Shown: piece by piece, positions 1,183 to 23,317 of the stretch
How positions within the stretch are numbered: position 1 is the first letter of the stretch
Layout of the letters: every line of letters starts with the position of its first letter
DNA from: Candidatus Hydrogenedentota bacterium
GTDB taxonomy: Bacteria; Hydrogenedentota; Hydrogenedentia; Hydrogenedentales; SLHB01
DNA length: 42,303 nucleotides
Assembly: GCA_016215105.1 (NCBI GenBank)
Contig: JACRLJ010000014.1
Coordinates: 17,506-59,808 of the forward strand
Direction of reading: 5' to 3'
The notes under the pieces: generated by a model
What the model was told of the DNA's origin: nothing
What the model saw: only the letters and a program-made list of their open reading frames with translations
The model's database searches: none
Position numbers and translations under genes: made by a program

Positions 1183-1300
1183 GAGCTTAGTAGTGAAGCT
1201 CCGGAGGCACTTGGACGCCAAGCCCGCCGCTGAGAAGCGGATAGCCCGACCGGCCGTACCTGGGGCCGTGTGGCGATCCCAGGAAATGGCACACCCACAC
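1183..1300. other. Cluster of hairpins between two convergent genes (bidirectional terminator or structured element)
   Basis: The 135-bp gap between two convergent genes is packed with perfect short stems: GAGCTT/AAGCTC (1183-1188/1196-1201), CTTGG/CCAAG (1210-1214/1218-1222), CCGCT/AGCGG closing a GAGA tetraloop (1227-1240), CCTGGG/CCCAGG (1259-1264/1278-1283) and GTGTGG/CCACAC (1268-1273/1295-1300). None is followed by a T tract. It may act as a two-way transcription barrier, but it is richer in structure than a simple terminator; see findings. Confidence 0.45.
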
Positions 1301-1311
1301 CAGTCTTGCGA

Positions 1312-2445
1312 TTACGGTTTCTTGACGAATTCCTTGTAGCTCGCGGCGAACTCGGTCTTCACTTTTTCGCGGGCGGCGCGAAGAGCCTGAACTTCCTTGC
1401 CGTCGGTAATCGGACCGAACTCGAGTGTGAAGGATTTGCTTTCGCCTGGCTTCAACGAGTGGAGCAGGCCCTGATCCTCGTCTATCTGACGGCCTTCGAC
1501 GCCGCAGTTGCAGGGTTCGAAGCCTACGGTGTAGTCCTGCTCCCCCATCTGTTTCCATTCCACGAAACGGGGTAATTCCTTCTTGTTGTACTTGACGTAG
1601 ACGCCGAATCCTTCGCCTTCGCCCTTTCCGAACCCGCCGTTCACGATGGCAGCGGTCACGGTACCGTCCCGGTCCGCGGCCATGTCGTGGTAGTAGCACT
1701 TCTCTTTGTACTTGTGCGTCGGTGGGTCGAGTTTGTACCAATTCTCCTTACCGTCGACCGCTTCGGCGTCGCGCGGCGCGACGTAACGGCTCGGGGTTAT
1801 CAGTTCCGACCCGGCGTCAACCGCCGGCCAACCGATATTGCAGTGGTAGAGCAGCATGTACTTGGTCTTGTTGAATCCTTCGTTGGTGACCGTGTCTTTA
1901 ATCCAGAAGCGGCGCTCACCGAGCTTGGTCGAAACCGTGCGTTTAAGGGTGAGATTCTCGCCGAAGACCACCGTCTCGCGCATCGTTCCCGTTACGCTAA
2001 GGACATAGTCTCTACCCTGCCATTCCTGAACAACTTGGATGTTGCGGGCCGGGGAGTTGCCGATGCGTCCGTGGAGTCCGTTGCCGAGCAATGCGCTCTC
2101 CGGACGCGGCGCGCCGACGTGGGTGAGCCCGCACGTGGTGACGAGCCCTCCGAAATAGCTACGCAACCAGCGGATGCCTTCGGCCTCGAAATATTGCGGC
2201 GCGACGTCACCGGTAGCGGAACGCCAGCCCATGGCGCGGCCGTTGAAGGAAGCGGATGCGATGTCGAGACACCGATCCAGCAGCACGGTCAATTCAAGAC
2301 CGTTTCCAGTATGGAGAATCGCCGCGCGGGTAGGACGTTCGTTACCGTCGTCCAATTGCACAGTGCGTACCCCCGCGATTTGATCCATATTTCCAACGCG
2401 TCGGCGCAGTTCGTCGGTCGCGTACTTCTTCCCGTAGATCTCCAT
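1312..2445 (-). CDS. DUF4432 family protein (aldose-1-epimerase-like fold)
   Basis: A 377-residue cytoplasmic protein of the DUF4432 family, which has the galactose-mutarotase beta-sandwich fold and is thought to bind or epimerise sugars or sugar phosphates. Characteristic stretches are LLDRCLDIASASF near residue 55, the conserved LYHCNIGWPAVDAGSELI around residue 200, and GFEPCNCGVEGR near 325. The start at 2445 is set by AAGGAGG directly upstream; a longer in-frame reading to 2493 lacks such a site. It is monocistronic, convergent with the hydrolase and divergent from the kinase-like gene. Its exact substrate cannot be deduced. Confidence 0.8.
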   Translation of the reverse strand: MEIYGKKYATDELRRRVGNMDQIAGVRTVQLDDGNERPTRAAILHTGNGLELTVLLDRCLDIASASFNGRAMGWRSATGDVAPQYFEAEGIRWLRSYFGGLVTTCGLTHVGAPRPESALLGNGLHGRIGNSPARNIQVVQEWQGRDYVLSVTGTMRETVVFGENLTLKRTVSTKLGERRFWIKDTVTNEGFNKTKYMLLYHCNIGWPAVDAGSELITPSRYVAPRDAEAVDGKENWYKLDPPTHKYKEKCYYHDMAADRDGTVTAAIVNGGFGKGEGEGFGVYVKYNKKELPRFVEWKQMGEQDYTVGFEPCNCGVEGRQIDEDQGLLHSLKPGESKSFTLEFGPITDGKEVQALRAAREKVKTEFAASYKEFVKKP

Positions 2446-2634
2446 TGTATCCTCCTTGTTTGATCCGCGATAGGGTAGCGTGAAATCACCCATAACCGGT
2501 AGTGTACTGGACGGCTAGGATAATCGTCTCAAGACCGCGTAATCAATTTCGTTTTGACCCGTCGCGTTCCAGAGCGTGATCTGTGGGCCGGGCATGCGCG
2601 GTAATGGAGCATTCTCCCTCGCAGAAAAGCTAAG

Positions 2635-2664
2635 TGGGCAAAGGTCAATGAAGAATGGTACGAT
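2635..2664 (+). promoter_or_regulatory. Promoter giving a leaderless mRNA for the kinase-like gene
   Basis: A -10 box TACGAT (2659-2664) ends 6 nt before the ATG at 2671; a weak -35 (TGGGCA, 2635-2640) lies 18 bp upstream. Initiation at the usual distance would fall on or beside the start codon, which has no Shine-Dalgarno sequence. The same geometry recurs at four other genes here. Confidence 0.45.
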
Positions 2665-2670
2665 TCGGCC

Positions 2671-4308
2671 ATGAAGACTAGACTTGAAGCTATTGAGCCT
2701 GCCTTGTCGTATGCGCGGGATCGCCTGATGGCTGGAACAGGCGCGACGCCTTCTGAAACCGCTATCGCAGCGTTGGGAGAAGCTCTGAGCGCGTTGCGCG
2801 CCTGTCACGGGTTTCTGGCTGTACATCGTCCGCCAGTGTATCGCACCGAGCGTGCCGGCGCATTGGTGTCGTCGTGTTATCCGGACGGCGCCAATGAAAG
2901 AATCGTGACACGGATCGAGAGTGTCGGCGATTGCGTCTACGACGCAGAGCAGGTTCGGGCGTGTGTGGAGGCCGTGGTCGGGTCGGTACGGCTTGAAGAT
3001 GACGCGCGGTTGTGGGTCGAGTTGTTTGAGGAAGAAGACGTGCCGCGCGTCGCGGTCAGTCTCGACGGTCCGGGGCGCGTTCCGGATACCGTGAGCTTCG
3101 GCGGGTTTGTTGAATTGCCGTTTGAGGAATTTGAAGCGCGTTGGACCGTCGCGACGCGGGGTGGGCGCATCGACAAGACGACCAATGGCTTGGCGTTGCG
3201 ACTGAAGGGCATCCGCGACCCTCGCGAGAGCGTCGAAGGGTTACAGCCACTGATTGATGCGGTGGCGGGCGCGGAAAAGAACGCAAGAACCGCGTTGCGG
3301 TGGATAGGAATCGCCGCTGAGGGATCGAGGCAGGCGGATAGCGCGAAAGAATGCGGCAAGGCCCTCGAGGCGGCTCGGGGCGCCTTGGACGGCGCGTTGC
3401 TCATCGTTGAGGGCGCGCCGGCGCCGTTGGAGCCGGCCGACCTGACCTCGGTTCTGGCAGAAGTCGAGAAGGAGCTTCGTCCCGGGCTCGAGCATGCCGG
3501 TATTCATATCGAAACGCTTTGCGACGCGCAGACGCCGCCAATTCTGATGCATCGCAGAAGTATGTCCGCGTTTTTCCGCTCCCTGTTCGGCTGGGGAAAG
3601 AAGGGCTTACCCGACGGCGGGCTAGTATCGCTGTTGATGGAGTACGATCTCCCCCGCCACTCTGTCGGTCTCGTCATTTCGTTCACGGGTCCCACGGCGG
3701 CGAAGGATGGGGCGTTCTACGAGGCCTCGCTCCGGCGGGCGCTGGTGGAGAAGCACGGCGGGACCTTGGAATGCTCGTCTGACGCGAAGAGCATAACGAT
3801 TTCGGCAAGCGTGCCCGATCCGGTGGGTAAGACGCTAGAGGAGTGGATTCCGGGGTTCGCCGTGTATTCCGTGCGCTCGAAGAAGATGTTGCGCCTACTG
3901 AAGGGCAGCGGTCAGGCCGCGCTGGAAGAAGCGATTATGGGTGGCGTACTTGAGGAAGAATTGGAGCGGTGGCTTCTGCCGCGGCTGGAAGACCCTATGA
4001 CGATTCATTTGGCGCGCGACCTGAAACCCGATAACCGCGCGCTGCCAGGCTCATCACCGGAACGCCTGGAGAAGGCGTTGGGGCAAGTTCAGCGGGGAAA
4101 ACCAAGGAAGGAAATCTGCAAGCCGCAGTATGCGGGGGAATTGCTGTGGGCGTTTCGGATCGATGAGCGTCATCGGGCAGCGTTGGGATTGAACGGACTT
4201 AATGATGCAGCCATTAAGGCGCTGTGCATCGCGTTGGTACAAAGCCCCCCGGCATGTCTGGAAGCGCTTCGGATCATCGCGAAGGTGGGCTACGCCGGCA
4301 GAGGGTGA
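2671..4308 (+). CDS. Degenerate histidine-kinase-like protein
   Basis: A 545-residue soluble protein with no signal peptide or membrane segment. Residues about 192-382 follow a sensor kinase core: a helical dimerisation-like stretch, the linker phrase around APLEPADLTSVLAEVE, an N-box-like region (296-317) and a C-terminal ATPase strand pair (LVEKHGGTLECSS, then SITISASVP). The phosphoacceptor His motif and the Asn of the N box (usually NLLxNA, here FRSLFGWG) are absent. A separate G1-box-like LDGPGRVP lies at 131-138, as if a second, more N-terminal GHKL-like fold were present. Residues 390-545 match nothing I recognise. Likely a non-catalytic sensor or scaffold; the family assignment is inference from pattern. 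The 3' end overlaps the convergent DUF433 gene by 19 bp. Confidence 0.55.
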   Translation: MKTRLEAIEPALSYARDRLMAGTGATPSETAIAALGEALSALRACHGFLAVHRPPVYRTERAGALVSSCYPDGANERIVTRIESVGDCVYDAEQVRACVEAVVGSVRLEDDARLWVELFEEEDVPRVAVSLDGPGRVPDTVSFGGFVELPFEEFEARWTVATRGGRIDKTTNGLALRLKGIRDPRESVEGLQPLIDAVAGAEKNARTALRWIGIAAEGSRQADSAKECGKALEAARGALDGALLIVEGAPAPLEPADLTSVLAEVEKELRPGLEHAGIHIETLCDAQTPPILMHRRSMSAFFRSLFGWGKKGLPDGGLVSLLMEYDLPRHSVGLVISFTGPTAAKDGAFYEASLRRALVEKHGGTLECSSDAKSITISASVPDPVGKTLEEWIPGFAVYSVRSKKMLRLLKGSGQAALEEAIMGGVLEEELERWLLPRLEDPMTIHLARDLKPDNRALPGSSPERLEKALGQVQRGKPRKEICKPQYAGELLWAFRIDERHRAALGLNGLNDAAIKALCIALVQSPPACLEALRIIAKVGYAGRG

Positions 4309-4511
4309 AACTGTTCTTGCTCCACTAGTTCACCAGCAAATTGGAGCGCCGCGAGAATGTCTTCACGCGTCAAATCGTATTCGCGTTCGACATCCTCGAA
4401 GCTCATGCCGCCCGCGAGACTCCCGACTACGTAGGCGACCGGCATTCGAGTACCGCGAACAACAGGTTTTCCGTGGCAGATTTTCGGGTCAATCACGATC
4501 CGCTCATTCAT
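4290..4511 (-). CDS. DUF433 domain protein (antitoxin-like), unpaired
   Basis: A 73-residue protein that is almost entirely a DUF433 domain: IDPKICHGKPVVRGTRMPV, then a short helix-turn-helix-like part (GMSFEDVEREYDLTREDILAAL). DUF433 proteins often act as DNA-binding antitoxins of VapB45-like pairs with a PIN-like (DUF5615) toxin. No such partner is encoded on either side. AAAGGAGA just upstream supports the start at 4511. Its 3' end overlaps the end of the kinase-like gene on the other strand. Confidence 0.8.
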   Translation of the reverse strand: MNERIVIDPKICHGKPVVRGTRMPVAYVVGSLAGGMSFEDVEREYDLTREDILAALQFAGELVEQEQFHPLPA

Positions 4512-4662
4512 CGACGGGGGTCTCCTTTACTCGGCTACAATTCATTATGCACCACCCCTTCATATCTGAGCACAAGTGCGCAGCGCTCACACTTGAAGCC
4601 GGGCAGCGCCAAATGCTACAACTGCGGCGGGAACCTTGGAACCACAGCCCGGAGAGGACAAT

Positions 4663-6576
4663 GTGGGTGTAACGTATCGTTCCGTCCTGATCGGCCTGCT
4701 GTTGATCCCTCTCAACTGCTTTTGGGTCGTTCTCGCCGAGATCATGTGGTATTCGGGTGAGCCCACCACCATCAGCCTCTTCTACAACGTCATCTTCATC
4801 CTCTCGATCATCATTCTGATCAATCTCGCCGTGCAGCGTTACAAGCCGTCCTGGGCGCTGCAGCCACCTGAAATTCTCGTCATTTACACCATGTTGGCCA
4901 TTGCCAGCGCCTTGTGCGGTCACGACATGATCGAGATCCTCATTCCGACCATGACCCACCTTCACCGGTATGCCCCCATTGAGCAACGGTATACGGAGGC
5001 GCTCAAGCATGTGCCCTCGTGGCTCGTGGTATCAGACCCAACCGCGCTCGAAAGCGCGTATATTGGCCAGGAATCCATGTACGCTTGGGCGAACCTGGCG
5101 CCTTGGCTGAAGCCGCTGGCCTATTGGTTCTGGTTCATTATGGCGCTGTGCGCGGTGCTGTGGGGAATGAACTTGATCCTGCGAAAGCAGTGGACCGAAA
5201 ACGAGAAGCTCTCGTATCCCGTCATTCAAGTGCCTATGCTGTTAGCGACGGAACCCAAGAGTCTGCTGACGAACCGTTTGTTTTGGCTGGCCTTCGCATT
5301 GGCGGGAACTATCGACGTCGTCAACGGATTCAACGCGCTATTTCCGTTGCTCCCCAAGATTCCCGTTGTCCACATCGTTGATTTGCAAACGCTGTTCCCG
5401 GAACGTCCGTGGAAAGACATGGGCGGGGCTTGGGTATCGTTTTATCCGTTCGCGATTGGCATGTGCTTTTTCATGCCAACCGATCTCGCGTTTTCGTGTT
5501 GGTTCTTCTTCATCTTCTGGAAGATACAGCGAGTCTTCGCGAGCTACATCGGTATTCACGGCATGCCGGGATTCCCATTTGTCGAGGAACAAACTGCCGG
5601 CGGGTACTACGCAATCGCGTTAATCGCGTTGTGGGTCACGCGTCATCACTTTCTGCGCTGCGCCCGTATTCTGGTGGGCCTGCCGGTGGATCGGGAGACG
5701 CCGTGGGAACGCCTCGAGGTCCGCATCGCCGTGGTCCTGATGACGGTCGGATTCGGATCGCTCGTGTTGTTCTGCCGCTGGGCGAACATGTCGTTCCCAA
5801 TCATCATCGTGTTCTTCATTTTGTACTTTTTGCTTTCGATCGCGGTGACCCGGATGCGCGCGGAACTCGGCCCTCCGGCGCACGATCTTCACGCCATCGG
5901 CCCTCAACTCCAAATTCTCAAATTCATGGGCATGTCCGAGATGGGCCGCAACTACGCATCCGACATGACGATGTTTGGCTTTCTGAATTTCTTCAATCGC
6001 GCCTACCGCGGACATCCGATGCCTCATGGGCTCGAGGCCTTTCGCATCGCAGAGCGCCTCAAGATGGACAATCTGCGTTATCTGCTCGCAATGGCTGTCG
6101 CGGTTGTCGCGGGAACGCTGTCGGCGTTCTGGGCCATGGTGTGGGTATTCGACAAGTACGGCGCCGCGGCGCAGATTGTCGGCCCCGGCGAATTGTTCGG
6201 ACGCGAAACCTGGGAACGGGTGAACCTGTGGTTTACCGCGCCGGAAATTCATCAGTACCAGCCAACCTACGCAATACTTATCGGCATAGTGTTCTCGCTG
6301 GGTCTCGCCGCGCTGCGCATGAACCTTACGTGGTGGCCGTTTCACCCCGTCGGATACGCGGTGAGCGGCTCGTGGTCCATGGAGCAATTGTGGGTCTGCA
6401 TATTCGTGGCGTGGCTAATCAAAGTGCTGATGATGAAATACGGCGGGGTCAAGGCGTACAAGCCAGCTGTGCCGTTCTTTGTTGGACTGATCATGGGCGA
6501 CTTCATCGTGGGCGCCTGCTGGAATCTCTACGGCGTCATAATGGAGAGGCAGGTGTACCATTTCTGGCCATACTGA
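4663..6576 (+). CDS. OPT-like polytopic transporter (DUF6785/DUF6784 type), first copy
   Basis: A 637-residue integral membrane protein with roughly 14 hydrophobic segments. Recognisable phrases are ENEKLSYPVIQVPMLL near residue 185, PTDLAFSCWFFFIFWKIQ near 270, EEQTAGGYYAIALIALW near 305 and MRAELGPPAHDLHAIGPQ near 405, which together fit the DUF6785 N-half and DUF6784 C-half of proteins distantly related to oligopeptide transporters. The transported substrate is unknown. I take the GTG at 4663 as start because GGAGAGG (4651-4657) precedes it by 5 nt; a TTG at 4636 would also be in frame but has no such site. It opens a membrane operon with the next two genes. Confidence 0.7.
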   Translation: MGVTYRSVLIGLLLIPLNCFWVVLAEIMWYSGEPTTISLFYNVIFILSIIILINLAVQRYKPSWALQPPEILVIYTMLAIASALCGHDMIEILIPTMTHLHRYAPIEQRYTEALKHVPSWLVVSDPTALESAYIGQESMYAWANLAPWLKPLAYWFWFIMALCAVLWGMNLILRKQWTENEKLSYPVIQVPMLLATEPKSLLTNRLFWLAFALAGTIDVVNGFNALFPLLPKIPVVHIVDLQTLFPERPWKDMGGAWVSFYPFAIGMCFFMPTDLAFSCWFFFIFWKIQRVFASYIGIHGMPGFPFVEEQTAGGYYAIALIALWVTRHHFLRCARILVGLPVDRETPWERLEVRIAVVLMTVGFGSLVLFCRWANMSFPIIIVFFILYFLLSIAVTRMRAELGPPAHDLHAIGPQLQILKFMGMSEMGRNYASDMTMFGFLNFFNRAYRGHPMPHGLEAFRIAERLKMDNLRYLLAMAVAVVAGTLSAFWAMVWVFDKYGAAAQIVGPGELFGRETWERVNLWFTAPEIHQYQPTYAILIGIVFSLGLAALRMNLTWWPFHPVGYAVSGSWSMEQLWVCIFVAWLIKVLMMKYGGVKAYKPAVPFFVGLIMGDFIVGACWNLYGVIMERQVYHFWPY

Positions 6577-6619
6577 TGAATAGACCGAGCGGAGTCATGC
6601 GCTCCATCCGAAACTCAGG

Positions 6620-9600
6620 ATGAAGACCACCCTGCATATTGTGTGGTGGACGATTGCGGCGGCGCTGGCCGTGGCGGTACAAGTCTATCTTAGTTACTGG
6701 GCGACGCAGACCGAGAAGGATCCAAATCTCCAGGAGACCGCGCAATTCGCCACTTCAGATTATCCAGGCATCGCCGCGCGTATTACGTCCGAGGGCTTGC
6801 AGGCGCATATTACCGCGCTGTCGAGCATTCCATCCCGGCTTACGGGCACGGAGGGGTGCGACCGGGCGGCGAAGTACATCGCGGATCAGTTTCGCGCGCT
6901 TGGAGCCGGCGAGCCACGGGTACACGAGTTTCCGGTCACCGTTCCGGTGTTCACGCGCTGCGAGTTGAAGACCGCGCAAGGCGCTTATCCCATCCACCCC
7001 GTGTATCCCAACGGGATGTGCCCGGCGGCGGTTCCGAAGGACGGCCTCAGCACTCGATTGATCTACGGGGGCTATGGCCGGCTGGGAAGTCTGGACGGAA
7101 AAGACGTTCAAGGGGCGACGGTACTTGTTGAGACGGGCGCGCGGGAACCCTGGCTGTACCTGATCGATCTTGGCGCGCGGGCCGTCGTGTTCGTTGAGAA
7201 CGGCCGTTCCGCCCGCGCACTCGAGGACTTCACGCAGACCGGATCGTCGCAAAACGTGCCGCGTTTCTGGATGACGGCCAAAGAGGCCAAGCCGCTGATC
7301 GATCGATTGAAGAAGCAAGATATGGACGCGACCTTGTACTCCGACGCGCGATGGGAACAGCGGACCGGCAAGAATCTGTGGATTGATATTCCCGGAGTAA
7401 GTAAGGCCGAGCACAATCGCTCCGAACGAATCGTGCTGGAGTCGTATTACGACAGTTTCTCGTTTGTGCCGGACCTGGCGCCGGGCGCCGAGCAAGCCTG
7501 CGGGATAGCGGCGTTGCTGGAACTGGCGAAAATCGTCAAGGACCACCCTTTCGAGAAGACCGTGCGTGTGTTGGCAATGTCGGGGCATTTCCAGGCGCTG
7601 GAAGGCCCGCGCCGGTACATTTGGGATGAGGTGGGACAATACGACTCGCCGATGCGCGACGTGTCACCGCAGGACTACGACGCGTTCCTGGGCCTGGACT
7701 TGTCATCCAATGGCGCACGCGTGGGACTTTTTTTCGGCGGGACATTCTACCAGCGGACCACGACCACGTTGCGGCCCCAGTTGTCGGACTTGGGACGGCG
7801 CGCCACCCAGTACGCGGGGGAGATTGCGAAGGCGCTCGATACAGACCCCGCGCTTGCGTTCGTAGACACCATCAATCCCACGCTGGGAATGGACTGGCCC
7901 AGTTTCATGCCCACTCCGCTGGCCTTGGACCATGAAGCAGCGTTGCTGGCGGGCGTTCCGTCGGTGTCGTTCGTGACCACCAACGACACCCGCTATTTCA
8001 CCGGAACGCCTGGTGACACGTCGGTGAACATCGACAACCTCGTCACGCAGACGCAAACGCTTGCATGTCTACTGCCCAACGCCTTCAACGTGGAAGGCCG
8101 CTATCTGAAGCGCTCCTTGGCGCGAAGCGCCTGCGAACTTAACGGACGTGTGGTGTCATTCGATCCGAAGACGAGTTACCTGCCCGACAAACCCCGGCCC
8201 AACGCGCTGGTTCGAATTCGGACTCAGTGGGGCTTTGACATGTTCCACGCGGGTGTCGCAATGCAGCCGATCGTCACCGCGGACGAGCGCGGGGAGTTTG
8301 GCGTGCCCGGCATGGCAATCAAAGAAGAGGCCTGGGCGCTGCAGCAAGCCGGCGTGGCCGCCGAACCGTTCGTGGTCGAGGAAGGCGCCATCACGTGGGC
8401 GGCAGATTACGGGCAAATGGGCAAGGAGAGTTACCCAATTACGACCACAATGGTGCAGAAACAGATGGACCTGATGTGCGTAGTTTTTCCCTGCAAGACC
8501 CTGGACCTCTACAACTTGATTGATCCGCGCACGTTCATGTACCTGAACACGCTCGAAGTGCTCGACGCCGCGAATGAGAGCAAGCCACCGGTGTTTGGAA
8601 CGACGATAGTTGACAGCACGTGGCTGGCGTACTCCTCCCCAACCGCCACCGTGTATGCGGCGCCCGGATCGCGCTTGAAACTTGCGGTGGGACCTGGGCT
8701 GGCGCAGAAACGCATGTTGTTGTTAAACGTCCCCGAGACGAAGCCCGCTAACGAGGTCTTCAATACGGGCGAAGGCTTCAGTGTGGACGAGACACCCGCC
8801 ATTCACCAGAGCTATCTGCAGAGCGCGCGCGACATGTGGCGGCTGGATGAATCGCGCATTGGCTTCTTCGGTTCGCGCGGCATCGAGAACGCGCGGGTCG
8901 AGCGCCTGCACGCGTTGGCCGGTGAAGCGTTGGAGAAGTCGCAGGCGGCGTTGACGGGCAAGCGTTACCAGGAGCATTTCGTGGAGGCCCGGCGCGCGTT
9001 GAGCCTTGAGTCGCGGGCGTATCCGGACGTGCTGGGCATGGCCAACGACGTGGTGCGGGGCCTGGTGTTCTATCTAGTCCTGCTGGTTCCATTCGCATTC
9101 GCCATGGAGCGTCTCTTTCTGGCGGGACGCCGCATCGAAACGCGAATACTCGGTATCGCGGGCATCTTCCTGTTGATGTTCCTGGCGCTGCGTTTCACCC
9201 ATCCCGCTTTTCAAATCGTGCTGAGCCCGATGGTGGTGCTGCTTGGCTTCGTGGTCGCGGTGCTGTCGACGGTCGTAATTTCGATTGTGATGGCGAAACT
9301 CGAAGCGTTGGTCTCCATACAGAAGACCGCGCAGGAAGGCGAGCATGAGTCGGGCGTGCAAGCGGTCAGCGGTTTCGCGTTGGCGTTGGAGATGGGCATC
9401 GCCAACATGCGCCGCCGTAAAGCGCGCACGGTGCTCACGTCCATAACACTTATCGTCTTGACGTTCTCGGTGTTGTCGTTCGCGTCGGTAACGGCGCAAC
9501 TTCGGACGCAGCAATATGTGTATGAGGAAGGCGCTACTCCCTATAAGGGTGTGTTACTCCGCACCCGGAATTGGGCCCCATTCCCATTCGACACGTTCGC

Positions 9601-11176
9601 GGCGTTGCGCAACGAGTTGGAAGCGACCTGCACGCTGGCGCCGCGCCGCTGGTATTACGGAACACTCATTCTCAACAGGTCCTTTGTGGACATCCAGATG
9701 GCCAAGACGGTGCGGACGGTCTCCGCGCTGGTGGGGCTCACGGCGCAGGAGACCCAATTCGAGGATGTGCGCTCGGCGCTGATTGGCAAGAGCCAGTGGC
9801 TCTCTCCCGACATCCAAGGTGAGGAGCCGAAGGCGGAAGTGCTGCTGCCCCTAAACCTCGCGGCCGAGTTCACAAGCAAGAGGCTCAGCAAGAAAGAACA
9901 AGACGATGAGTTGACCGGCGCCGAGAAGGAACGGATCGCGGACGGATTGCTTGGAAAAGAAGTCAAGATGTTGGGCCGCACCTTTACCGTGGCGGGAGTA
10001 TTCGACTGGAAGAAGATGAATGACCTCGTGGACATTGACGGAGAAAGCCTCAGTCCATATGACCCGCTGCAAATGGAGAAGAAAGCCCAGGAAGAGGGCA
10101 CGGCCGATCCCGAATCCGTTCAGCGCTACATTCATCACTCGTTCCGCGACGTGGTGGTTACGTCAGAGCCAATCCTTAGTCACTTAGGCGGCGACCTGCG
10201 ATCCATTGCGGTGCTTCCGAAAGATCCGGACACGTTGGAGGATTTGCTGGCAAGCCTGGTCCGCCGCATGGATTTCGTGCTGTTCGCAAATCTCGACGGG
10301 AAGTCCACGTTGCTCAGCAGCCGGGACGCAACGCGCATCTCCGAAATCTGGAACCTGATCGTACTGATGGCGATCGCGGGTCTCATTGTCTTCAACACGA
10401 TGCTGGGCTCGGTATTCGAGCGCACAAAGGAAATCGGAACTTACACCGCGCTTGGCATTGCGCCCTCGCACATTGGCCGTTTGTTCATGGTCGAGGCAGC
10501 CGTGTTCTCGGTGATCGGCGTGATGGCCGGCTATGTGCTCGGCCAGACCGTTTCGCGGGTGGTAACCATGGTCAACGTGCCCGCGCTAAACGCGCTGAAC
10601 CTGAATTACAGTTCCCTGGCGGGCGTCGGCGCGTGCATCGTGGTCATGGCTATGGTCATGCTGTCGTCGCTCTACCCGGCGCGAAAAGCGTCTCAATTGG
10701 GCGTCCCTGACATCGAGCGCCGGTGGAAGCTCCCCGTCACCAAACAGGCGGATATCACGCTCGAATTGCCTTTCACGGTTTCCCCGCGCGAGGCGCCCGG
10801 ACTCGTGGCCTTCCTGAAAGAGTACCTGGACTCGCACGTGGACGTGTCGGTCGGCGGATTCTACGTGGAAAACGTCAAGGCTGGACCGCAGGCCGCCGAG
10901 GGAGTCGGGACGGGCGTCACCGCGCAGTTTTGGTTGACTCCGTTTGACCTGGGTGTCAGCCAGTTCACCACGTTCACGCTGCATCCCCTCGAGGACATGG
11001 ACGTGTGCGGGGTGCAAGTACGCATCGAACGGTTGAGCGGTGACGCGGGCTCGTGGCGCCGTGCAAATGGTCATTTCATGACGTCCATGCGCAGCCAGTT
11101 CCTCATGTGGCGCAACCTCTCCCCCGCCGCCCGCTCCGGCTACGTCGAACGCGGAAAGGACTACGCGCTGGCATGA
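6620..11176 (+). CDS. Giant fusion: PA + M28-peptidase-like domain + FtsX/MacB-type permease
   Basis: A 1518-residue membrane protein. Order: N-terminal membrane anchor (about 8-27); a protease-associated-like insert (about 145-240); an M28 aminopeptidase-like domain (about 252-480); an unassigned extracytoplasmic region (490-810); three membrane helices (814-892); then a four-helix FtsX permease (first helix about 935-955 after ANMRRRKARTVL, later helices about 1243-1263, 1288-1307, 1335-1355 with the phrase FERTKEIGTYTALG) and a soluble C-terminal domain. The M28 fold is clear (AALLELAKIV, GTPGDTSVNIDNL) but the zinc sites are eroded: HYD is Y276-Y277-D278, the bridging Asp is E291, the Glu-Glu pair is H323-F324, and the final His is gone. 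Likely a non-hydrolytic binding module tied to a permease. No ABC ATPase is nearby. It starts 43 nt after the first transporter and its stop overlaps the next start as ATGA. Confidence 0.75.
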   Translation: MKTTLHIVWWTIAAALAVAVQVYLSYWATQTEKDPNLQETAQFATSDYPGIAARITSEGLQAHITALSSIPSRLTGTEGCDRAAKYIADQFRALGAGEPRVHEFPVTVPVFTRCELKTAQGAYPIHPVYPNGMCPAAVPKDGLSTRLIYGGYGRLGSLDGKDVQGATVLVETGAREPWLYLIDLGARAVVFVENGRSARALEDFTQTGSSQNVPRFWMTAKEAKPLIDRLKKQDMDATLYSDARWEQRTGKNLWIDIPGVSKAEHNRSERIVLESYYDSFSFVPDLAPGAEQACGIAALLELAKIVKDHPFEKTVRVLAMSGHFQALEGPRRYIWDEVGQYDSPMRDVSPQDYDAFLGLDLSSNGARVGLFFGGTFYQRTTTTLRPQLSDLGRRATQYAGEIAKALDTDPALAFVDTINPTLGMDWPSFMPTPLALDHEAALLAGVPSVSFVTTNDTRYFTGTPGDTSVNIDNLVTQTQTLACLLPNAFNVEGRYLKRSLARSACELNGRVVSFDPKTSYLPDKPRPNALVRIRTQWGFDMFHAGVAMQPIVTADERGEFGVPGMAIKEEAWALQQAGVAAEPFVVEEGAITWAADYGQMGKESYPITTTMVQKQMDLMCVVFPCKTLDLYNLIDPRTFMYLNTLEVLDAANESKPPVFGTTIVDSTWLAYSSPTATVYAAPGSRLKLAVGPGLAQKRMLLLNVPETKPANEVFNTGEGFSVDETPAIHQSYLQSARDMWRLDESRIGFFGSRGIENARVERLHALAGEALEKSQAALTGKRYQEHFVEARRALSLESRAYPDVLGMANDVVRGLVFYLVLLVPFAFAMERLFLAGRRIETRILGIAGIFLLMFLALRFTHPAFQIVLSPMVVLLGFVVAVLSTVVISIVMAKLEALVSIQKTAQEGEHESGVQAVSGFALALEMGIANMRRRKARTVLTSITLIVLTFSVLSFASVTAQLRTQQYVYEEGATPYKGVLLRTRNWAPFPFDTFAALRNELEATCTLAPRRWYYGTLILNRSFVDIQMAKTVRTVSALVGLTAQETQFEDVRSALIGKSQWLSPDIQGEEPKAEVLLPLNLAAEFTSKRLSKKEQDDELTGAEKERIADGLLGKEVKMLGRTFTVAGVFDWKKMNDLVDIDGESLSPYDPLQMEKKAQEEGTADPESVQRYIHHSFRDVVVTSEPILSHLGGDLRSIAVLPKDPDTLEDLLASLVRRMDFVLFANLDGKSTLLSSRDATRISEIWNLIVLMAIAGLIVFNTMLGSVFERTKEIGTYTALGIAPSHIGRLFMVEAAVFSVIGVMAGYVLGQTVSRVVTMVNVPALNALNLNYSSLAGVGACIVVMAMVMLSSLYPARKASQLGVPDIERRWKLPVTKQADITLELPFTVSPREAPGLVAFLKEYLDSHVDVSVGGFYVENVKAGPQAAEGVGTGVTAQFWLTPFDLGVSQFTTFTLHPLEDMDVCGVQVRIERLSGDAGSWRRANGHFMTSMRSQFLMWRNLSPAARSGYVERGKDYALA

Positions 11177-13119
11177 CAACACTCGATAATACGGACAGCG
11201 CACGAGCCCCGGCGGAGACGGACTACGAAAGCGGCTTCTCGATCCGCACGATGATCGGCGCGGTTTTCGTGGGCCTGGTGATGATGCCGGGAACGATCTA
11301 TCTCAGCCTGGTCGCGGGTTCCGGCCTGGGGCCCGCGGCGCAGTGGGTGACGATTATTCTGTTCACCGAAATCGCGCGGCGCTCGTTCACGACCTTAAAG
11401 CGGCAGGAAGTCTACATCCTCTACTACATGGCCGCGGCTCTCGCGACGACCGGCGGGCCTTTCGGCGGAATGATCTTCAATCAGTATTTGGCGCAGAGTC
11501 CGCAGGCCATCGGATTCGGTATCGCGGATCAGTTGCCCGAGTGGATTGTGCCTAGTCGGTTCTCGGAAGGCATTGTTGGCCGCAATCTGCTTCACGCGGA
11601 TTGGCGCATCCCCATTCTGCTGACCGCGCTGCTGTGGACGGTCGGCCGGGTCACGTCGTTGACCATGGGTTACGCGCTGTTCCGCGTGACCGCGGATATC
11701 GAGAAACTGTCCTTCCCGCTGGCGCCTATCGCGGCGGAAGGCGCCACCGCGCTCGCCGAGACGACGGGCAAGAAAGAGTCCTGGCGCTGGAACGTGTTTA
11801 GCGTGGGCGCGGCGATAGGGCTGGTGTTCGGCGGAGTCTACATCGGCATCCCGGGCTTCACCGGCGTATTGTTGTCCAAGCCCCTGCAAATCATTCCGAT
11901 TCCCTTCGTGGACCTCACGCAAACGACCGAGCACGTGCTTCCCGCCGCGCTGGCGGGGGTGAGCGTGGACCTCGGCGCGTTTATCGTCGGCATGCTGCTT
12001 CCGTTTGCGATGGTGGCGGGGACGTTCGTGGCGGCGGTCACGAGCGCGTTTGTGGCGAATCCGATTCTGCAGCGCAACGGTTTCTTGCCGCACTGGAAAC
12101 CGGGCATGTCGCTGATCCCGACGAAGATCGCGGTGGACTTCGATTTCTGGATGAGCGTCGGGATCGGGGCGTCGTTGTGCGTGGCGCTGATCGGCGTCTA
12201 CAAGATTCTGCAGACCTTTCTGCGAAAACGCGAGCCGTCCGAGCGCGGCCTGTTTGAGCCGCCACCGGGGCGCGGCGACATTCGCCTGCACTGGTGCATT
12301 CTGTTGTACATAGTCGCCAGCGTGGGGTACATTTTGTTGTGCCGCAAACTGCTTCGGCAAGACCAGTTTCCGATGTTCATGCTGGTCGCCTATGCGCTCA
12401 TCATCACACCGGCGATTTCGTATATCAGCGCGCGCATGATCGGATTGACCGGCAGCCCTGTGGCTTTCCCCTTCCTGCGCGAAGGCACGATCATACTTTC
12501 GGGGTACCGCGGCGTGGATATATGGTACGCGCCGCTGCCGCTCGCCGACCACGGCCTTTCCGCGCAGATGTTCCGCGAATTGACTTTGACGCGGACGAAG
12601 TTCTCGAGCTTGGTGAAGATCGAACTGTTTATGCTGCCCATCGCGTTGGTGTGCAGCTTCCTATTCTGGGCCTTCTTCTGGAATATCGAATCCATCCCGT
12701 CGGCGACGTATCCCTTCACCGCCAAGATGTGGCCTCTCACCGCGACCTACCAGTGCCTGTTCATGACCGCCACCAGCGGCGGCAACAATTGGCTGCTCGA
12801 AGCCATCAAAGCCAAATACGTCCTCGGCGGAGTGGGCCTCGGGTTTGGATTGCTCGGCGCCACCACCCTCGCGGGGGCCACTCCCCTCTTCTTTTACGGG
12901 ATGATCGGCGGACTCGGCGCCATCCCTAACGCGGCCATCCCCATGTTCCTCGGCGCGCTCGTAGGCCGCCGCTTTTTCGAGCGGAAATACGGCATCGAGA
13001 CTTGGCGCCGTTACACGCCTGTGCTGGCGGCGGGTTACGCCTGCGGCGTGGGACTGATCGGCATGCTCGCCGTGGCCTTCGCGATGGTGGCGAAGAGCGT
13101 GTCGTCGCTGCCGTTTTAG
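11173..13119 (+). CDS. OPT-like polytopic transporter, second copy
   Basis: A 648-residue protein with many membrane helices, related in layout to the first transporter of this operon (for example IEKLSFPLAPIAAEG near residue 185, compared with EKLSYPVIQVP in the other). A soluble N-terminal tail of about 25 residues precedes the first helix. The ATG at 11173 overlaps the stop of the fusion gene (ATGA), implying translational coupling; the reading frame is open further upstream but only inside the fusion gene. Its last 45 codons (from YGIETWRRYTP to the stop) are duplicated in decayed form at 14508-14648. Substrate unknown; peptides are a guess from the OPT relationship and from the peptidase-like partner. 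Confidence 0.65.
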   Translation: MTTLDNTDSARAPAETDYESGFSIRTMIGAVFVGLVMMPGTIYLSLVAGSGLGPAAQWVTIILFTEIARRSFTTLKRQEVYILYYMAAALATTGGPFGGMIFNQYLAQSPQAIGFGIADQLPEWIVPSRFSEGIVGRNLLHADWRIPILLTALLWTVGRVTSLTMGYALFRVTADIEKLSFPLAPIAAEGATALAETTGKKESWRWNVFSVGAAIGLVFGGVYIGIPGFTGVLLSKPLQIIPIPFVDLTQTTEHVLPAALAGVSVDLGAFIVGMLLPFAMVAGTFVAAVTSAFVANPILQRNGFLPHWKPGMSLIPTKIAVDFDFWMSVGIGASLCVALIGVYKILQTFLRKREPSERGLFEPPPGRGDIRLHWCILLYIVASVGYILLCRKLLRQDQFPMFMLVAYALIITPAISYISARMIGLTGSPVAFPFLREGTIILSGYRGVDIWYAPLPLADHGLSAQMFRELTLTRTKFSSLVKIELFMLPIALVCSFLFWAFFWNIESIPSATYPFTAKMWPLTATYQCLFMTATSGGNNWLLEAIKAKYVLGGVGLGFGLLGATTLAGATPLFFYGMIGGLGAIPNAAIPMFLGALVGRRFFERKYGIETWRRYTPVLAAGYACGVGLIGMLAVAFAMVAKSVSSLPF

Positions 13120-13260: not shown

Positions 13261-13271
13261 GGTTGCGCGTC

Positions 13272-14495
13272 ATGTATCTCAAACGGACCCTCGAGACCTT
13301 CTTCCCCAAAGCGGCCGCGCAGTTTCCTGTGATGCTGGTGAACGGCGCGCGGCAAGTGGGAAAGACGACCTTTCTCCGGCGGCTCGCCAAGTCTAGCCGG
13401 ACCTATATTACGCTGGACGATCCGATGGCGCTTAGCTTGGCTAAGGAAGAGCCTGCGCTATTCATGCAGCGATTTCCTCCACCGGTGCTCATCGACGAAA
13501 TCCAGTATGCGCCGGAACTGCTTCCCTATATCAAGATGGCGGTGGACAGGGATCGAACGGCGGGGGCTTTCTGGCTGACGGGATCGCAGCAATTTCACCT
13601 GATGCGCGGCGTCTCCGAATCGCTGGCGGGCCGCATCGCTGTGGTGGAGCTTCTGGGTTTTGCGCGGAGGGAACGCATGGCCGGGCGTCAAGCGTTCGCG
13701 CCGTTCCTGCCCGTTCCCAAGGAGATTCAGCGGCGCTTGCGATCGGGCGGGACACTCTCCTTGCCCCAGCTCTACGCGATGATTTGGCGCGGCTCATTTC
13801 CGGCCATAGCCGTATCCGCCAAGATGGACCGGGACCTCTTCTACAGTTCGTACGTGCAGACCTACCTTCAACGGGATATTCGCGACTTGGCCCGCGTCGG
13901 TGACGAGATGGCCTTCTTGAGGTTCTTGCGCGCCACCGCGGCTCGTTCCGGGCAGCTCTTGAACCTGGCGGATCTCGCGCGTGACGCGGACGTGGCGCAT
14001 AACACCGCAAAACAGTGGCTTTCGATCTTGCAGACTTCAGGAATAATCTATTTGCTCGAACCCTACTTCACAAATCGCACGAAACGCTTGGTGAAGGCGC
14101 CTAAACTCTATTTCCTGGACTCCGGTCTGTGCGCGTATCTGACCGAATGGTCCAGTCCGGAAACACTCGAGGCCGGAGCCATGTCCGGCGCGATACTCGA
14201 GACATGGATTCTCTCCGAGATTCTCAAGTCGTGGCGCCACAATGGGCGTCACGCCCCATTTTTCTACTATCGAGACCGGGACCAGAAAGAGATTGACCTG
14301 CTCATCGTACAGGATGGGACGCTTTATCCTCTGGAGTTCAAGAAGACCGCGTCCCCCGATAAGGATGCAGTCAGCCACTTCCGGCTTCTGGAGAAACTGA
14401 AGATGCCCGTCGGCCCCGGGGGTGTCGTTTGTCTGGCCGCCGAGTACCTTCCACTGACGGACGCCGCAAGCGCCATTCCCATCAGCGCGCTCTGA
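13272..14495 (+). CDS. AAA ATPase with DUF4143 domain
   Basis: A 407-residue cytoplasmic ATPase. The N-terminal AAA part has a Walker A (GARQVGKTTF, about residue 23), a Walker B (PVLIDEIQYAPEL, about 72) and a sensor-like LTGSQQF. The DUF4143 part follows: YLQRDIRDLARVGD near 195, a winged-helix-like stretch (NLADLARDADVAHNTAKQW), then a nuclease-like fold with YFLDSGLCAYLT and KEIDLLIVQDGTLYPLEFKK, resembling a PD-(D/E)XK core. Family members are common, sporadically distributed and of unclear role. The ATG at 13272 is preceded by AAAGGG; a TTG three codons earlier is possible. The gene sits alone between a transporter and a decayed piece of a transporter copy, suggesting a later arrival. 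Confidence 0.85.
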   Translation: MYLKRTLETFFPKAAAQFPVMLVNGARQVGKTTFLRRLAKSSRTYITLDDPMALSLAKEEPALFMQRFPPPVLIDEIQYAPELLPYIKMAVDRDRTAGAFWLTGSQQFHLMRGVSESLAGRIAVVELLGFARRERMAGRQAFAPFLPVPKEIQRRLRSGGTLSLPQLYAMIWRGSFPAIAVSAKMDRDLFYSSYVQTYLQRDIRDLARVGDEMAFLRFLRATAARSGQLLNLADLARDADVAHNTAKQWLSILQTSGIIYLLEPYFTNRTKRLVKAPKLYFLDSGLCAYLTEWSSPETLEAGAMSGAILETWILSEILKSWRHNGRHAPFFYYRDRDQKEIDLLIVQDGTLYPLEFKKTASPDKDAVSHFRLLEKLKMPVGPGGVVCLAAEYLPLTDAASAIPISAL

Positions 14496-14507
14496 CCCGG
14501 CGATCCC

Positions 14508-14648
14508 GAACGAAAAATGCGGCATCGAAACCTGACGCCGCTACACCCCCTTCCACGCCGCCGGCTACGCCTGCGGCGTGGGCTTGATCGGCATGCTGGC
14601 GGTGGCGTTCGCGATGGCGGCGAAGAGCGTGTCGTCGCTGCCGTCTAG
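14508..14648 (+). pseudogene. Decayed 3' fragment of a second-transporter paralogue
   Basis: This stretch aligns with the last 45 codons of the transporter ending at 13119 (roughly 80% identical by eye). Read in the matching frame it gives GIET, a stop in place of Trp (TGG to TGA), then RRYTPFHAAGYACGVGLIG and MLAVAFAMAAKSVSSLP; the native stop TAG has become AGA, and a 1-nt insertion breaks the frame near 14515. Most other differences are synonymous third-position changes, so the copy apparently diverged as a working gene before being truncated. The remaining 500-odd codons are absent. Confidence 0.85.
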
Positions 14649-19631: not shown

Positions 19632-21299
19632 TTACTCCAACCCCATGCGCTTCAGCGCGCGCCACAGCGTGGTGCGGCCCACATTGAGCAATTTCGCGGC
19701 GTGACTGCGGTTTCCCTTGGTGCGGCGCAGGGCAGCGCGGATGACCTCCGGGCTCAATTCCTGAGGCGCCGGTGCGATTCGGGTAGCTAGGATGTCGTCC
19801 GGCAAGTCCTCGGCAGCCAGCGCCGCCCCGCTGCTCATCAGTACCGCATGTTCAATTACGTTGCGTAATTGCCGAAGATTGCCGGGCCACGCGCAGTCCA
19901 GAAGCGCTTTCTTGAACTCGGGCGCCATCGCGGTGTCCGCTCGCTGGTAGCGCGCCTGGGCCTCGCGCAGAAAAGCATCCGCCAAACGCAGGATATCGTC
20001 GCCACGCTCTCGCAGCGGAGGCAGTTCAATTTGCGCGATAGCCAACGCATAGTATATGTCCTCGCGCAAGACCCCGGACGCCATGGCCTGGCGCGGGTCC
20101 ATCTGCGTTGCGGCGATGATACGAACATCCACTTTCACAGGCGCTTCCGCCCCGAGCGGGGTCACTGTGCCGTCCTGCATGGCCCGCAGAAGTTGTCCCT
20201 GGGTCTCCGGGCCTAGCTTGGTAATCTCTTCGATGTATATCGAGCCGCCATTCGCCCGCTCCAGGGCTCCCGCATAGGGGCGGACCGCGCCCGAGACGGC
20301 ATCCTTGGCAAATCCGAACAGCTCCTGGTTCAGAAGCGCGGGGGTCAGCCCCGCGCAGTCAATCGCAACGTAGGGCCGATTCTTGCGCGGACCGCCAGCG
20401 TGCAGGGCACGCGCCAGGGTAGCCCGTCCCGTGCCTCGTTCGCCCACAATGAGCACCGGCGCGGGAGTCGTCATGGCCGCGCGAGCCCGCTTCATGGGGG
20501 TCTCCATCGATTCGGAGGCGGCGACCATGCTCTCGAGCATTAGGTCGGACCGCAGCCGGCGATTCAGGTCGTTCAGGGACGCCTGGACGCGGTGAAGCTC
20601 CTGTCGCGCAGCGGCGAGCCGTTCGTCGCGCTGGGTCAATTCGGCCTCGATCGAAGTCATCTTGAGGGCGAGTCGAGCCCAATCGGCCTCGCCGCCCCAT
20701 TCGGGATCGAGCTTGGACACGAAGCGGCAGCATGGATCTCCTTTGGCAATGCATTCCGTCTCGCTGGTGATGACTCTGCGTCCGACGATTTCGCTGATGT
20801 GACCCGCGAAGTAGCCCGCCGTGTACCAGCAGACCGGGTAGTCGAGCGGGTCCAGTCCGACCCGGTGGGTCGTAGCTTCCGTGTTTCCGCGCAGCAGAAT
20901 TTCCCCGTAGAGAGTCCGCGCGTCGAGGTCGAACTCAAAGCGAATTGGCTCGGCAGTATAACGGCCCTCCAACTGGCCGAAGACTTGGCCCGCCTGAAGC
21001 GCGAGCCGAGTATTGCTTTCAAACACGCCGAAATGGCGATGGGCGTCACGCCTGCCTTGCTCGAAGCCAACGCGGTAGGCGAGCATGCGCGATCGAGAGA
21101 CACCAAGGATCTCGAGCCAGTGTCTCCGCTCGACGGCAAGATGCTCGGCGTCAACGAACACGCCGACGCGGTCAAGTAAAGTTAACTTTCCACGACTTGG
21201 GTTAAGCTCGAGCCACTGACACCGATCCCCTTCAATGTAATGAGCGAGGACAGGAGGGAGTTCCAGAAAGATCTTGGAGCTTAGCTTCGTAGGGGGCAT
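19632..21299 (-). CDS. XylR/DmpR-like regulator: V4R sensor, AAA domain, Fis HTH, with altered sigma-54 motifs
   Basis: A 555-residue transcription regulator. Residues 1-205 form an XylR-N/V4R-type ligand-sensing part ending in a cysteine cluster (C183, C190, C191); 210-255 is a coiled-coil linker; 258-500 the AAA domain; 518-552 a Fis HTH (GNRSHAAKLLNVGRTTLWRA). Key AAA residues depart from active enhancer-binding proteins: Walker A is GERGTGR with Arg292 for Lys, the sigma-54-contact loop GAFTGA reads DAVSGA (333-338), and Walker B has E357-E358 for Asp-Glu. The arginine-finger region LREDIYYAL is kept. It may act without sigma-54. AGGTGG lies about 8 nt before ATG. Symmetric TGAAACA half-sites surround its promoter. 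Confidence 0.85.
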   Translation of the reverse strand: MPPTKLSSKIFLELPPVLAHYIEGDRCQWLELNPSRGKLTLLDRVGVFVDAEHLAVERRHWLEILGVSRSRMLAYRVGFEQGRRDAHRHFGVFESNTRLALQAGQVFGQLEGRYTAEPIRFEFDLDARTLYGEILLRGNTEATTHRVGLDPLDYPVCWYTAGYFAGHISEIVGRRVITSETECIAKGDPCCRFVSKLDPEWGGEADWARLALKMTSIEAELTQRDERLAAARQELHRVQASLNDLNRRLRSDLMLESMVAASESMETPMKRARAAMTTPAPVLIVGERGTGRATLARALHAGGPRKNRPYVAIDCAGLTPALLNQELFGFAKDAVSGAVRPYAGALERANGGSIYIEEITKLGPETQGQLLRAMQDGTVTPLGAEAPVKVDVRIIAATQMDPRQAMASGVLREDIYYALAIAQIELPPLRERGDDILRLADAFLREAQARYQRADTAMAPEFKKALLDCAWPGNLRQLRNVIEHAVLMSSGAALAAEDLPDDILATRIAPAPQELSPEVIRAALRRTKGNRSHAAKLLNVGRTTLWRALKRMGLE

Positions 21300-21500: not shown

Positions 21501-22352
21501 CTATAAATTACTCTTGGTAGATTGGAACCGTTTCAGTACAAAGAACAGAACTACGGAGAGGACGGCGAAGGCGAGACTGAATATTTGCTGGTCGGAGAGC
21601 GCAAGAACATGCGTGGGGTTATGGTCACCCCGGAGATACTCGTTGAAAAACCGCCATAGCCCGTAAAGTATAAAGTACACCGGCATCGTAAAGCCTTGGA
21701 AGGGATGCCAGTACTTGCGCAACAATAGGAGGGAAACACAGATGGCAATCAGGGCCAAGAACTCGTAGAGCTGGGTGGGATGCATGGGCAAAGACCACTG
21801 ATCGTTCATGGAGATCTTGCTGAAGCGCTGCACATGGTCCAAGAAAGGGGGACTGCCAGTGGCGTCCTGACCCACGTCAAATGGAACACGTGGAAAGCGA
21901 ATCCCCCAAGGCAGTGATGTCGGCAACCCGTAGCAGCATCCGTTGAGGAAGCATCCAATTCTGCCGAAGGCGTGGCCTAACGCAAGATACGGGAACCCAA
22001 CATCCACGGTCTTCCAGAAGCTCATATTCCGGCGCTTCAAATACCAGTAACCGAAGAGAATAGCTGGGGGTGGCCCCCCCTGGAACACCAGTCCGCCGCG
22101 CCAGACGGCAATCCAACCTATTGGGTCGTTCCAGGAGTAGGAGTCGGAGAACATAATGATATGCAGGACGCGGGCGCCGGCTAAGCCAAGAAGTAGGACC
22201 CAGAATGCCAAGTCCGCGACTACGTTGGGGTCCAGCCCGGCTCTCCGGGCCTCTCTCTGAATGAAGTAAAGGGAGGTTAGGAAACCCAGCGCCATCATCA
22301 ACCCGTACGAGTGAACGGTCAGAGGACCGATCTTACACAGGGTTGGGAACAC
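21501..22352 (-). CDS. lgt: Prolipoprotein diacylglyceryl transferase
   Basis: A 283-residue inner-membrane enzyme that transfers diacylglycerol from phosphatidylglycerol to the lipobox cysteine, the first step of lipoprotein maturation. Diagnostic parts are the N-terminal HSYGLMMALG (His near residue 14), the signature GHAFGRIGCFLNGCCYG near residue 130 with its essential Arg and Asn, MHPTQLYE near 195, and about seven membrane helices. The start is GTG at 22352 with GGAGG 6 nt upstream. It overlaps the end of lspA by 20 nt and is the last gene of the ileS operon, so the first two lipoprotein enzymes are made together. Confidence 0.95.
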   Translation of the reverse strand: MFPTLCKIGPLTVHSYGLMMALGFLTSLYFIQREARRAGLDPNVVADLAFWVLLLGLAGARVLHIIMFSDSYSWNDPIGWIAVWRGGLVFQGGPPPAILFGYWYLKRRNMSFWKTVDVGFPYLALGHAFGRIGCFLNGCCYGLPTSLPWGIRFPRVPFDVGQDATGSPPFLDHVQRFSKISMNDQWSLPMHPTQLYEFLALIAICVSLLLLRKYWHPFQGFTMPVYFILYGLWRFFNEYLRGDHNPTHVLALSDQQIFSLAFAVLSVVLFFVLKRFQSTKSNL

Positions 22353-22863
22353 GTGGTTCCTCCGTGGGATTCTGTACGTTACGCCAACTTAATATGAGGA
22401 GAAATACTCCCGTGCATATCGCGGAGTCGGCTAGGTTAAACGCGGGAAAACGCTTCCAGGGGAATTCAAAGGGAACAAAGTAGAAGTTTACCTGGAGAAA
22501 ATCAGTAACGACTCCGAACCAGAAGCGATCAATGATGTTGCCGATGGCGCCACCCGCGACCAGCCCCCACGCGATAGTTTGAATACGGGACGCGGGATCG
22601 AGGTGTCTGTAAAGATAAACTAACACACCACAGGCAAACAACGGCATGATTTTCGCCAAGTAAGGCCGGTCTTGGAAAATGCCGTTCACGAGTCCGGGAT
22701 TCTGCTGGTGAGTGAAGAAGAAGAACACTTCCTCGCGGCCAGCAAACGGATTTGGCATGAACTGTATCTCACTTCGGACTATCGCCTTCGAGATCTGATC
22801 GGACACGACGACGAAGATGAAGATCGCGAGGATGAGGAGGAGCTGCTCTTTGCGGGATTTCAA
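22333..22863 (-). CDS. lspA: Lipoprotein signal peptidase (signal peptidase II)
   Basis: A 176-residue inner-membrane aspartyl protease that cleaves prolipoprotein signal peptides after lgt action. Motifs present: SDQISKAIV (about 24), NPGLVNGIF, GGAIGNIIDRFWFGVVTDF with the first catalytic Asp (about 110), and FPAFNLADSAI with the second (about 140). Four hydrophobic segments. The frame stays open upstream through the dksA-like gene, so length alone misleads; I take the TTG at 22863, 10 nt after that gene's stop, which gives the family's usual length. No strong ribosome binding site is visible, consistent with coupling. Confidence 0.9.
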   Translation of the reverse strand: MKSRKEQLLLILAIFIFVVVSDQISKAIVRSEIQFMPNPFAGREEVFFFFTHQQNPGLVNGIFQDRPYLAKIMPLFACGVLVYLYRHLDPASRIQTIAWGLVAGGAIGNIIDRFWFGVVTDFLQVNFYFVPFEFPWKRFPAFNLADSAICTGVFLLILSWRNVQNPTEEPRVPNPV

Positions 22864-22873
22864 GGGATCTACT

Positions 22874-23242: not shown

Positions 23243-23317
23243 ACCTTAATGTCTCCTAGTCCGTCTTATCCGCAACAACCTAATCAAACAATGCCATCGA
23301 TTCATTACCGGCAGGTC

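Follow-up and report, generated by a model that had tools for sequence, protein, structure and literature searches.

How can an FtsX-type permease work from a locus that encodes no ATP-binding cassette (ABC) transporter ATPase? The question was raised by three adjoining genes, here named A, B and C, in a 42,303-nucleotide stretch of DNA (the window) from Candidatus Hydrogenedentota bacterium (contig JACRLJ010000014.1, positions 17,506 to 59,808 of the forward strand). A and C encode OPT-like membrane proteins and B encodes a fusion of an M28-like domain with an FtsX permease. An original prediction, made from the letters of the window, had taken the three genes for a self-contained sensor or gate in need of no such ATPase. 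Comparison with other genomes pointed to a different answer. The explanation that we hold to be somewhat better than an even bet is a Type VII ABC system, apparently not yet described and in part split, in which B pairs with a second permease, D, is served by an ATPase, E, and works with the OPT-like carriers. Its ligand is probably a peptide or resembles one. The composition of the system, taken alone, is very probable, and the mechanism about half as probable as the composition.

The A-B-C locus and its conservation

All three genes are read on the forward strand. A (4663-6576, 637 residues) begins with a GTG codon behind a good ribosome-binding site, GGAGAGG, and was assigned from its Pfam domains DUF6785 and DUF6784, from AlphaFold and Foldseek, and from its conserved position upstream of B. 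After a gap of 43 nt it is followed by B (6620-11176, 1518 residues, about eight transmembrane (TM) helices; Pfam, phmmer and hydropathy), which overlaps C (11173-13119, 648 residues) in an ATGA motif. C was recognised as a second OPT-like membrane protein by AlphaFold and Foldseek, by a Pfam OPT match in one homologue and by its co-occurrence with B. The open reading frames, their lengths and both junctions proved to be as originally described, and the window does indeed encode no ABC transporter ATPase.

A survey of 68 genomes of the window's phylum, apparently Hydrogenedentota, found the fusion B in 14 genomes and C in 13, every one of them with B. The order A-B-C was kept wherever the contigs allow, with identities of 60-77% in genomes of the window's family and 30-50% in other families. 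Since the order is conserved across families, the arrangement is not due to chance, and the search for the three-gene order upheld the view that the genes are a conserved unit, in which the fusion co-occurs with the transporters in other genomes. The same fusion gene, on contigs of equal length, is carried by L129, recorded as Nitrospiraceae OTbin.67, and by G046, a genome of the window's own family; the former record is probably a mislabelled metagenome-assembled genome (MAG).

A second permease and an ATPase

Four genomes (G003, G042, G018 and G020) hold five-gene operons, A-B-C-D-E, in which D, an FtsX permease, has about 230 residues and E, an ATPase, about 246. C adjoins D-E also in G056, G058 and G019. 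An orthologous D-E pair, located away from A-B-C, was found in the window's genome and in six relatives of its family, seven genomes in all; in the window's genome it lies on the minus strand of contig G000:C139 (locus L120), with E at 7471-8223 and D at 8399-9031. In G057 a single contig carries both A-B-C and D-E, with about 270 kb between them, and the split is therefore not an assembly artefact in that genome. Orthologues of D and E were present in all 14 B-bearing genomes of the 68, and E was found also in G026 and G060. The co-occurrence of B and E gave a Fisher probability of 1e-12 when counted by genome and of 4e-9 when counted by genus, uncorrected for relatedness.

E of the separate pair was 66-70% identical to the E of the operons, while other ABC ATPases of these genomes reached at most 52%, the second E-like copy of G058 apart. 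Operon-linked and separate E sequences formed one clade in the tree, apart from 22 other ABC ATPases, with a support of 96/91. The best NCBIfam match of E was LolD (1e-68, below the cutoff of that equivalog), and E scored best against models of LolD, MacB and YbbA. The motifs of a LolD/MacB-class ATPase, namely Walker A, signature and Walker B, are intact in E of the window's genome (GPSGSGKST, LSGGQ and DEPTGNLD), a gene which lies outside the window and is linked to it by the gene order of relatives. The FtsX domain PF02687 is present in both B and D, and D has only about 20 residues between its first and second TM helices. Two tandem E-like ATPases were observed near D in L128 of G058 (1249-5334), where a PqqD-like gene lies between them, and on G026:C193, where the order is G-PqqD-D-E-E without a detectable fusion B.

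Distribution beyond the phylum

An alignment scan of genome contigs returned 359 B relatives over several phyla, where a single-sequence scan returned nothing. Loci were counted for the best 80 of the 359, which belong to Armatimonadota, Latescibacterota, Omnitrophota, Zixibacteriota, Gemmatimonadota, Lentisphaerota, Sumerlaeota and others; among named Armatimonadota, Chthonomonas and Capsulimonadaceae have the system. Of the 71 loci in which 700 nt or more follow B, 58 have C near it, in many cases overlapping B or no more than about 10 nt away. Where D and E share the locus of B, four arrangements were seen: A-B-C-D-E, B-C-G-PqqD-D-E, D-E-B-C and G-PqqD-D-E-A-B-C. The last of these, from Desantisbacteria (L161), combines exactly those two pieces that the window's genome holds apart. 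Across lineages only B-D-E comes close to universal.

The original prediction had itself named, as a test of the self-contained system, a search for a conserved ABC ATPase elsewhere. One was found, and the outcome speaks against that system: D and E stand in the locus of the fusion in 21 of the 80 loci of other genomes, and E is encoded elsewhere in all seven genomes of the window's family with a separate pair. Of 25 other genomes without D-E at the B locus, 23 also have a clear E orthologue elsewhere (68-81% identity). D adjoins E in most of the 20 loci inspected. That a gene neighbourhood lacks a motor does not mean that the system lacks it. Near B, L146 and L149 have generic ABC ATPases of the sugar type, with TOBE, which were considered as partners and rejected for their low score against E; the genome of L149 has an E orthologue elsewhere.

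The M28-like domain of B

That the 1518-residue chain is a real fusion of a peptidase-like and an FtsX-type part was confirmed by Pfam, which found both Peptidase_M28 (3e-7) and FtsX (2e-15) in B; phmmer matched the aminopeptidase 2ek8 as well as YtrF/MacB/LolF/LolC. An extracytoplasmic region at the N-terminus (residues 47-480, 6758-8059) holds the M28-like domain, as defined by M28 alignment, and may include a PA-like insert, as read from the sequence. A hydrophobic segment at residues 804-901 (9029-9322), probably three TM helices by hydropathy, separates the ectodomain from the FtsX part. The FtsX module (residues 934-1359, 9419-10696, with PF02687 at 1247-1359) consists of a TM helix, a periplasmic domain of about 275 residues and three TM helices; a match to MacB_PCD, and a weak one, was obtained only for the homologue in L035. 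A conserved C-terminal domain past the last TM helix (residues 1370-1518, 10727-11173) was recognised in the alignment of homologues.

B was aligned to 2ek8 and the M28 site was then read across about 80 homologues. The first canonical histidine is tyrosine in 57 of them and histidine in only 9, and the last canonical histidine is retained in 8 of 80. The canonical glutamate pair is His-Phe in most homologues: the general base is replaced by histidine in 78 of 78 aligned homologues and the adjacent ligand glutamate mostly by phenylalanine (57). By sequence the M28 fold is present in B, and the set of zinc ligands and general-base glutamate is not. With the canonical positions replaced, B lacks the canonical di-zinc catalytic site, and its assignment as an M28 peptidase was rejected, most canonical catalytic positions being lost in most homologues. 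Four other residues, D278, H323, D360 and E439, are near-invariant, and a putative site, conserved but non-canonical, remains in the domain. We call the domain repurposed; it may serve as a module for binding or be an enzyme of a non-canonical kind. Because the canonical catalytic residues have been lost, a role in binding or sensing seems more likely than canonical M28 proteolysis. B thus has the M28 domain fold, judged by sequence, in common with the M28 aminopeptidases 2ek8 and YwaD (6hc6), but their catalytic glutamate and histidine ligands are exchanged for a different conserved set.

The OPT-like proteins A and C

Pfam matched A to DUF6785 (3.1e-143) and DUF6784 (5e-35) and gave no match for the window's C. 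The OPT family (PF03169) was matched by one of 17 C homologues (1.5e-5) and by neither A nor C of the window. No similarity between A and C was detected by BLAST, and comparison of their profiles gave a weak, co-linear match (E 5e-4, probability 32%). Sequence searches of the PDB returned nothing for A, and nothing for the profiles of A and C; therefore the folds were compared. AlphaFold models of A and C had predicted local distance difference test (pLDDT) values of 87.8 and 84.4. The top Foldseek matches of the A model were 7wsr and 7wst, both HvYS1 (barley YS1), with TM-scores of 0.61-0.68, and the C model matched HvYS1 with an E-value of 7e-10 and TM-scores of 0.62/0.66. HvYS1 was the only significant PDB fold match for both models (probability 1.00). 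On these predicted folds A and C are both OPT-like, and the label originally given to them fits. The predicted fold is common to A, C and the OPT/YSL transporters, of which YS1 is a proton-coupled symporter (PMC9691689), but identity to HvYS1 in the structural alignments is only about 11-16%. A and C differ from the OPT/YSL transporters also in being tied to an ABC system. To our knowledge, no other OPT protein is so tied.

Neighbours of the D-E pair

A PqqD-like gene lies upstream of D in six of the seven split genomes of the window's family, and a gene of family G, which has no Pfam match, in four. The PqqD match (PF05402) in the window's genome scored 27.0 bits against a cutoff of 23.4, and a second member scored 31.3. 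PqqD is a peptide-binding fold. Within the phylum, G and PqqD of this type were found only in genomes carrying D-E. No enzyme for ribosomally synthesized and post-translationally modified peptides was found among the neighbours scanned, a subset without small open reading frames.

In an Omnitrophota genome (G069, L245) D-E comes directly after an oligopeptide importer of the Opp type, as identified by Pfam, and before a pyrroline-5-carboxylate reductase; gene sizes and order in L247 (G072) are similar. Glycosyltransferases adjoin D-E in Latescibacterota, and in the window's family (L120-L126) a conserved gene, F, which matches the model of LA_3751-type glycosyltransferases, comes after E, directly or, in L123, one gene later. 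Neighbours that were considered and then dropped as lineage-specific are a TPR protein encoded ahead of B in Omnitrophota, glycyl-tRNA synthetase, PhyH, DUF1559 pseudopilins and pyrroline-5-carboxylate reductase.

Proposed mechanism and alternatives

The core of the system would consist of B, with its M28-like ectodomain and an FtsX half-permease; D, a small half-permease whose periplasmic domain is all but missing; the ATPase E; and C as carrier. In many lineages A, as a second OPT-like carrier, the PqqD-like protein and the soluble family G would join this core, and in the window's family the system would be split, with A-B-C here and (G)-PqqD-D-E elsewhere in the genome. Two E subunits may bind ATP beneath the asymmetric B-D pair, and mechanotransmission would shift the periplasmic part of B. 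The moved M28-like domain would capture, and then release, a peptide or peptide-like ligand, e.g. a metallophore, for the OPT-like C and A to carry across the inner membrane. The motor would in effect load or gate the OPT-like carriers via the M28-like domain. Type VII systems pass ATP-driven motion to the periplasm in this way, and the substrate is not moved through the permease pair (PMC5985334). The M28 and OPT folds, PqqD and the Opp importer next to D-E in an Omnitrophota genome suggest a peptide-like ligand, but the glycosyltransferase neighbours in other lineages would be compatible with a lipid or glycan substrate. Sequence, gene order or predicted folds show the composition of the system and its conservation, the loss of the canonical M28 residues, the OPT fold and the presence of E in trans. 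On the same grounds we infer that the proteins form a complex moved by ATP, and infer the class of the ligand and the direction in which it goes, as we do function throughout.

Several observations weigh against this explanation. C is absent downstream of B in 13 loci with room for it, and A is near B in only 24 of 80 loci. Two of the 25 genomes without D-E at the B locus lack a clear E orthologue, one having a distant E paralogue (57%) and the other no E. G026 and G060, both fragmented MAGs (83% and 80% complete), carry D-E with PqqD and G, and no B or C was found in them. The correlation of B and E distances (Mantel r 0.74, permutation maximum 0.17) counts in favour of the explanation, but could also result from shared vertical descent alone. 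In several lineages D-E has no PqqD or G gene nearby. The neighbours of separate D-E pairs (Opp importer, pyrroline-5-carboxylate reductase, glycosyltransferases) vary by lineage, so that the case for a peptide as ligand is weak.

B-D-E could instead act in lipid or lipoprotein extraction, pulling a membrane-anchored substrate such as a lipopeptide or a lipid-linked glycan into the M28-like domain in the manner of LolCDE or YbbAP-TesA, with the OPT-like proteins as secondary exits or scaffolds. The E scores against LolD, MacB and YbbA models would suit such a role, and E. coli YbbAP-TesA is a Type VII ABC motor serving a periplasmic hydrolase (PMC12646458). The glycosyltransferases near D-E in Latescibacterota and after E in the window's family would fit as well, but these neighbours are lineage-specific and B is without canonical hydrolytic residues, and we consider extraction unlikely. 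We also know of no OPT protein that transports lipids. The loss of residues also bears on peptide scavenging, in which an active peptidase B would digest periplasmic peptides with the help of the ABC unit, and A and C would import the products. The M28 fold, the two OPT folds and the position of D-E beside an Opp importer are what would be expected of it; with the general base replaced in every aligned homologue, the ligand glutamate mostly phenylalanine, and the first and last histidines rarely kept, we regard it as very unlikely.

The remaining alternatives concern how the parts belong together. A, B and C acting alone, as originally proposed, would agree with the lack of an ABC transporter ATPase gene in the window and with the seven genomes of the window's family that hold A-B-C apart from D-E. 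Every genome of the phylum that has B also has specific orthologues of D and E, and in many loci elsewhere these adjoin B, which leaves this proposal with hardly any probability. It is just as improbable that the OPT-like carriers and the B-D-E unit are co-transcribed bystanders which act separately. Stand-alone paralogues of A do exist (four to six DUF6785 matches each in G057, G067 and G060, mostly away from the fusion), and some B loci lack A or C, but C occurred only with B among the 68 genomes and usually directly follows it, often at about 10 nt or overlapping.

Relation to known systems

The Type VII system proposed here for B, D and E can be compared with YbbAP-TesA (PMC12646458), which likewise has an FtsX-type permease, a separate YbbA/LolD-like ATPase and a periplasmic module with a hydrolase fold. 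The hydrolase of YbbAP-TesA is separate and active, whereas that of B is fused and without canonical catalytic residues; YbbP holds both permease halves, whereas here the small D would be the second half and OPT-like proteins take part. LolCDE, MacB and FtsEX have the FtsX fold and a LolD-class ATPase with intact motifs in common with the system. In contrast to them, B has an M28-like ectodomain and extra TM helices, there are OPT-like partners, and D appears too short for the Porter subdomain, which is thought to be present in all Type VII members (PMC5985334). A hybrid transporter class, in which a mechanotransmission (Type VII) motor with an asymmetric pair and a repurposed M28 ectodomain would load or gate OPT-like secondary carriers and so unite ATP hydrolysis and an OPT carrier in one complex, is a doubtful but conceivable extension.

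A keyword search of the open-access literature found no published account of DUF6785, of the M28-FtsX-like permease fusion or of the whole system, in line with the earlier statement that no described system of this composition was known. A conserved multi-gene system, common to candidate phyla and some named Armatimonadota, would join OPT-like carriers to a motor of the Type VII ABC kind. It gives a context to DUF6785/6784 and to the unnamed OPT-like family of C, and opens to test the question of whether secondary carriers can be driven or gated by a Type VII ABC machine.

Other genes of the window

Downstream of the locus, in the region 13263-14644, a DUF4143/AAA_14 gene, matched by the PADLOC PDC-S01 models, separates the intact C from a 3' relic of the C gene (14509-14643, forward strand). 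The relic is 84-85% identical to the 3' end of C and has a TGA stop; its position behind the DUF4143 gene suggests an insertion or a duplication at the operon end. An AAA_21-type ATPase at 16848-18400 matches the PADLOC HEC-01A models and has a 4-nt overlap with a small cyclophilin-like gene. A sigma-54 activator of the XylR_N/V4R type is encoded at 19632-21299. On the minus strand, at 21501-26119, overlapping lgt and lspA genes adjoin a class I (isoleucyl-type) tRNA synthetase gene; these lipoprotein maturation genes are located about 8 kb away from A-B-C.

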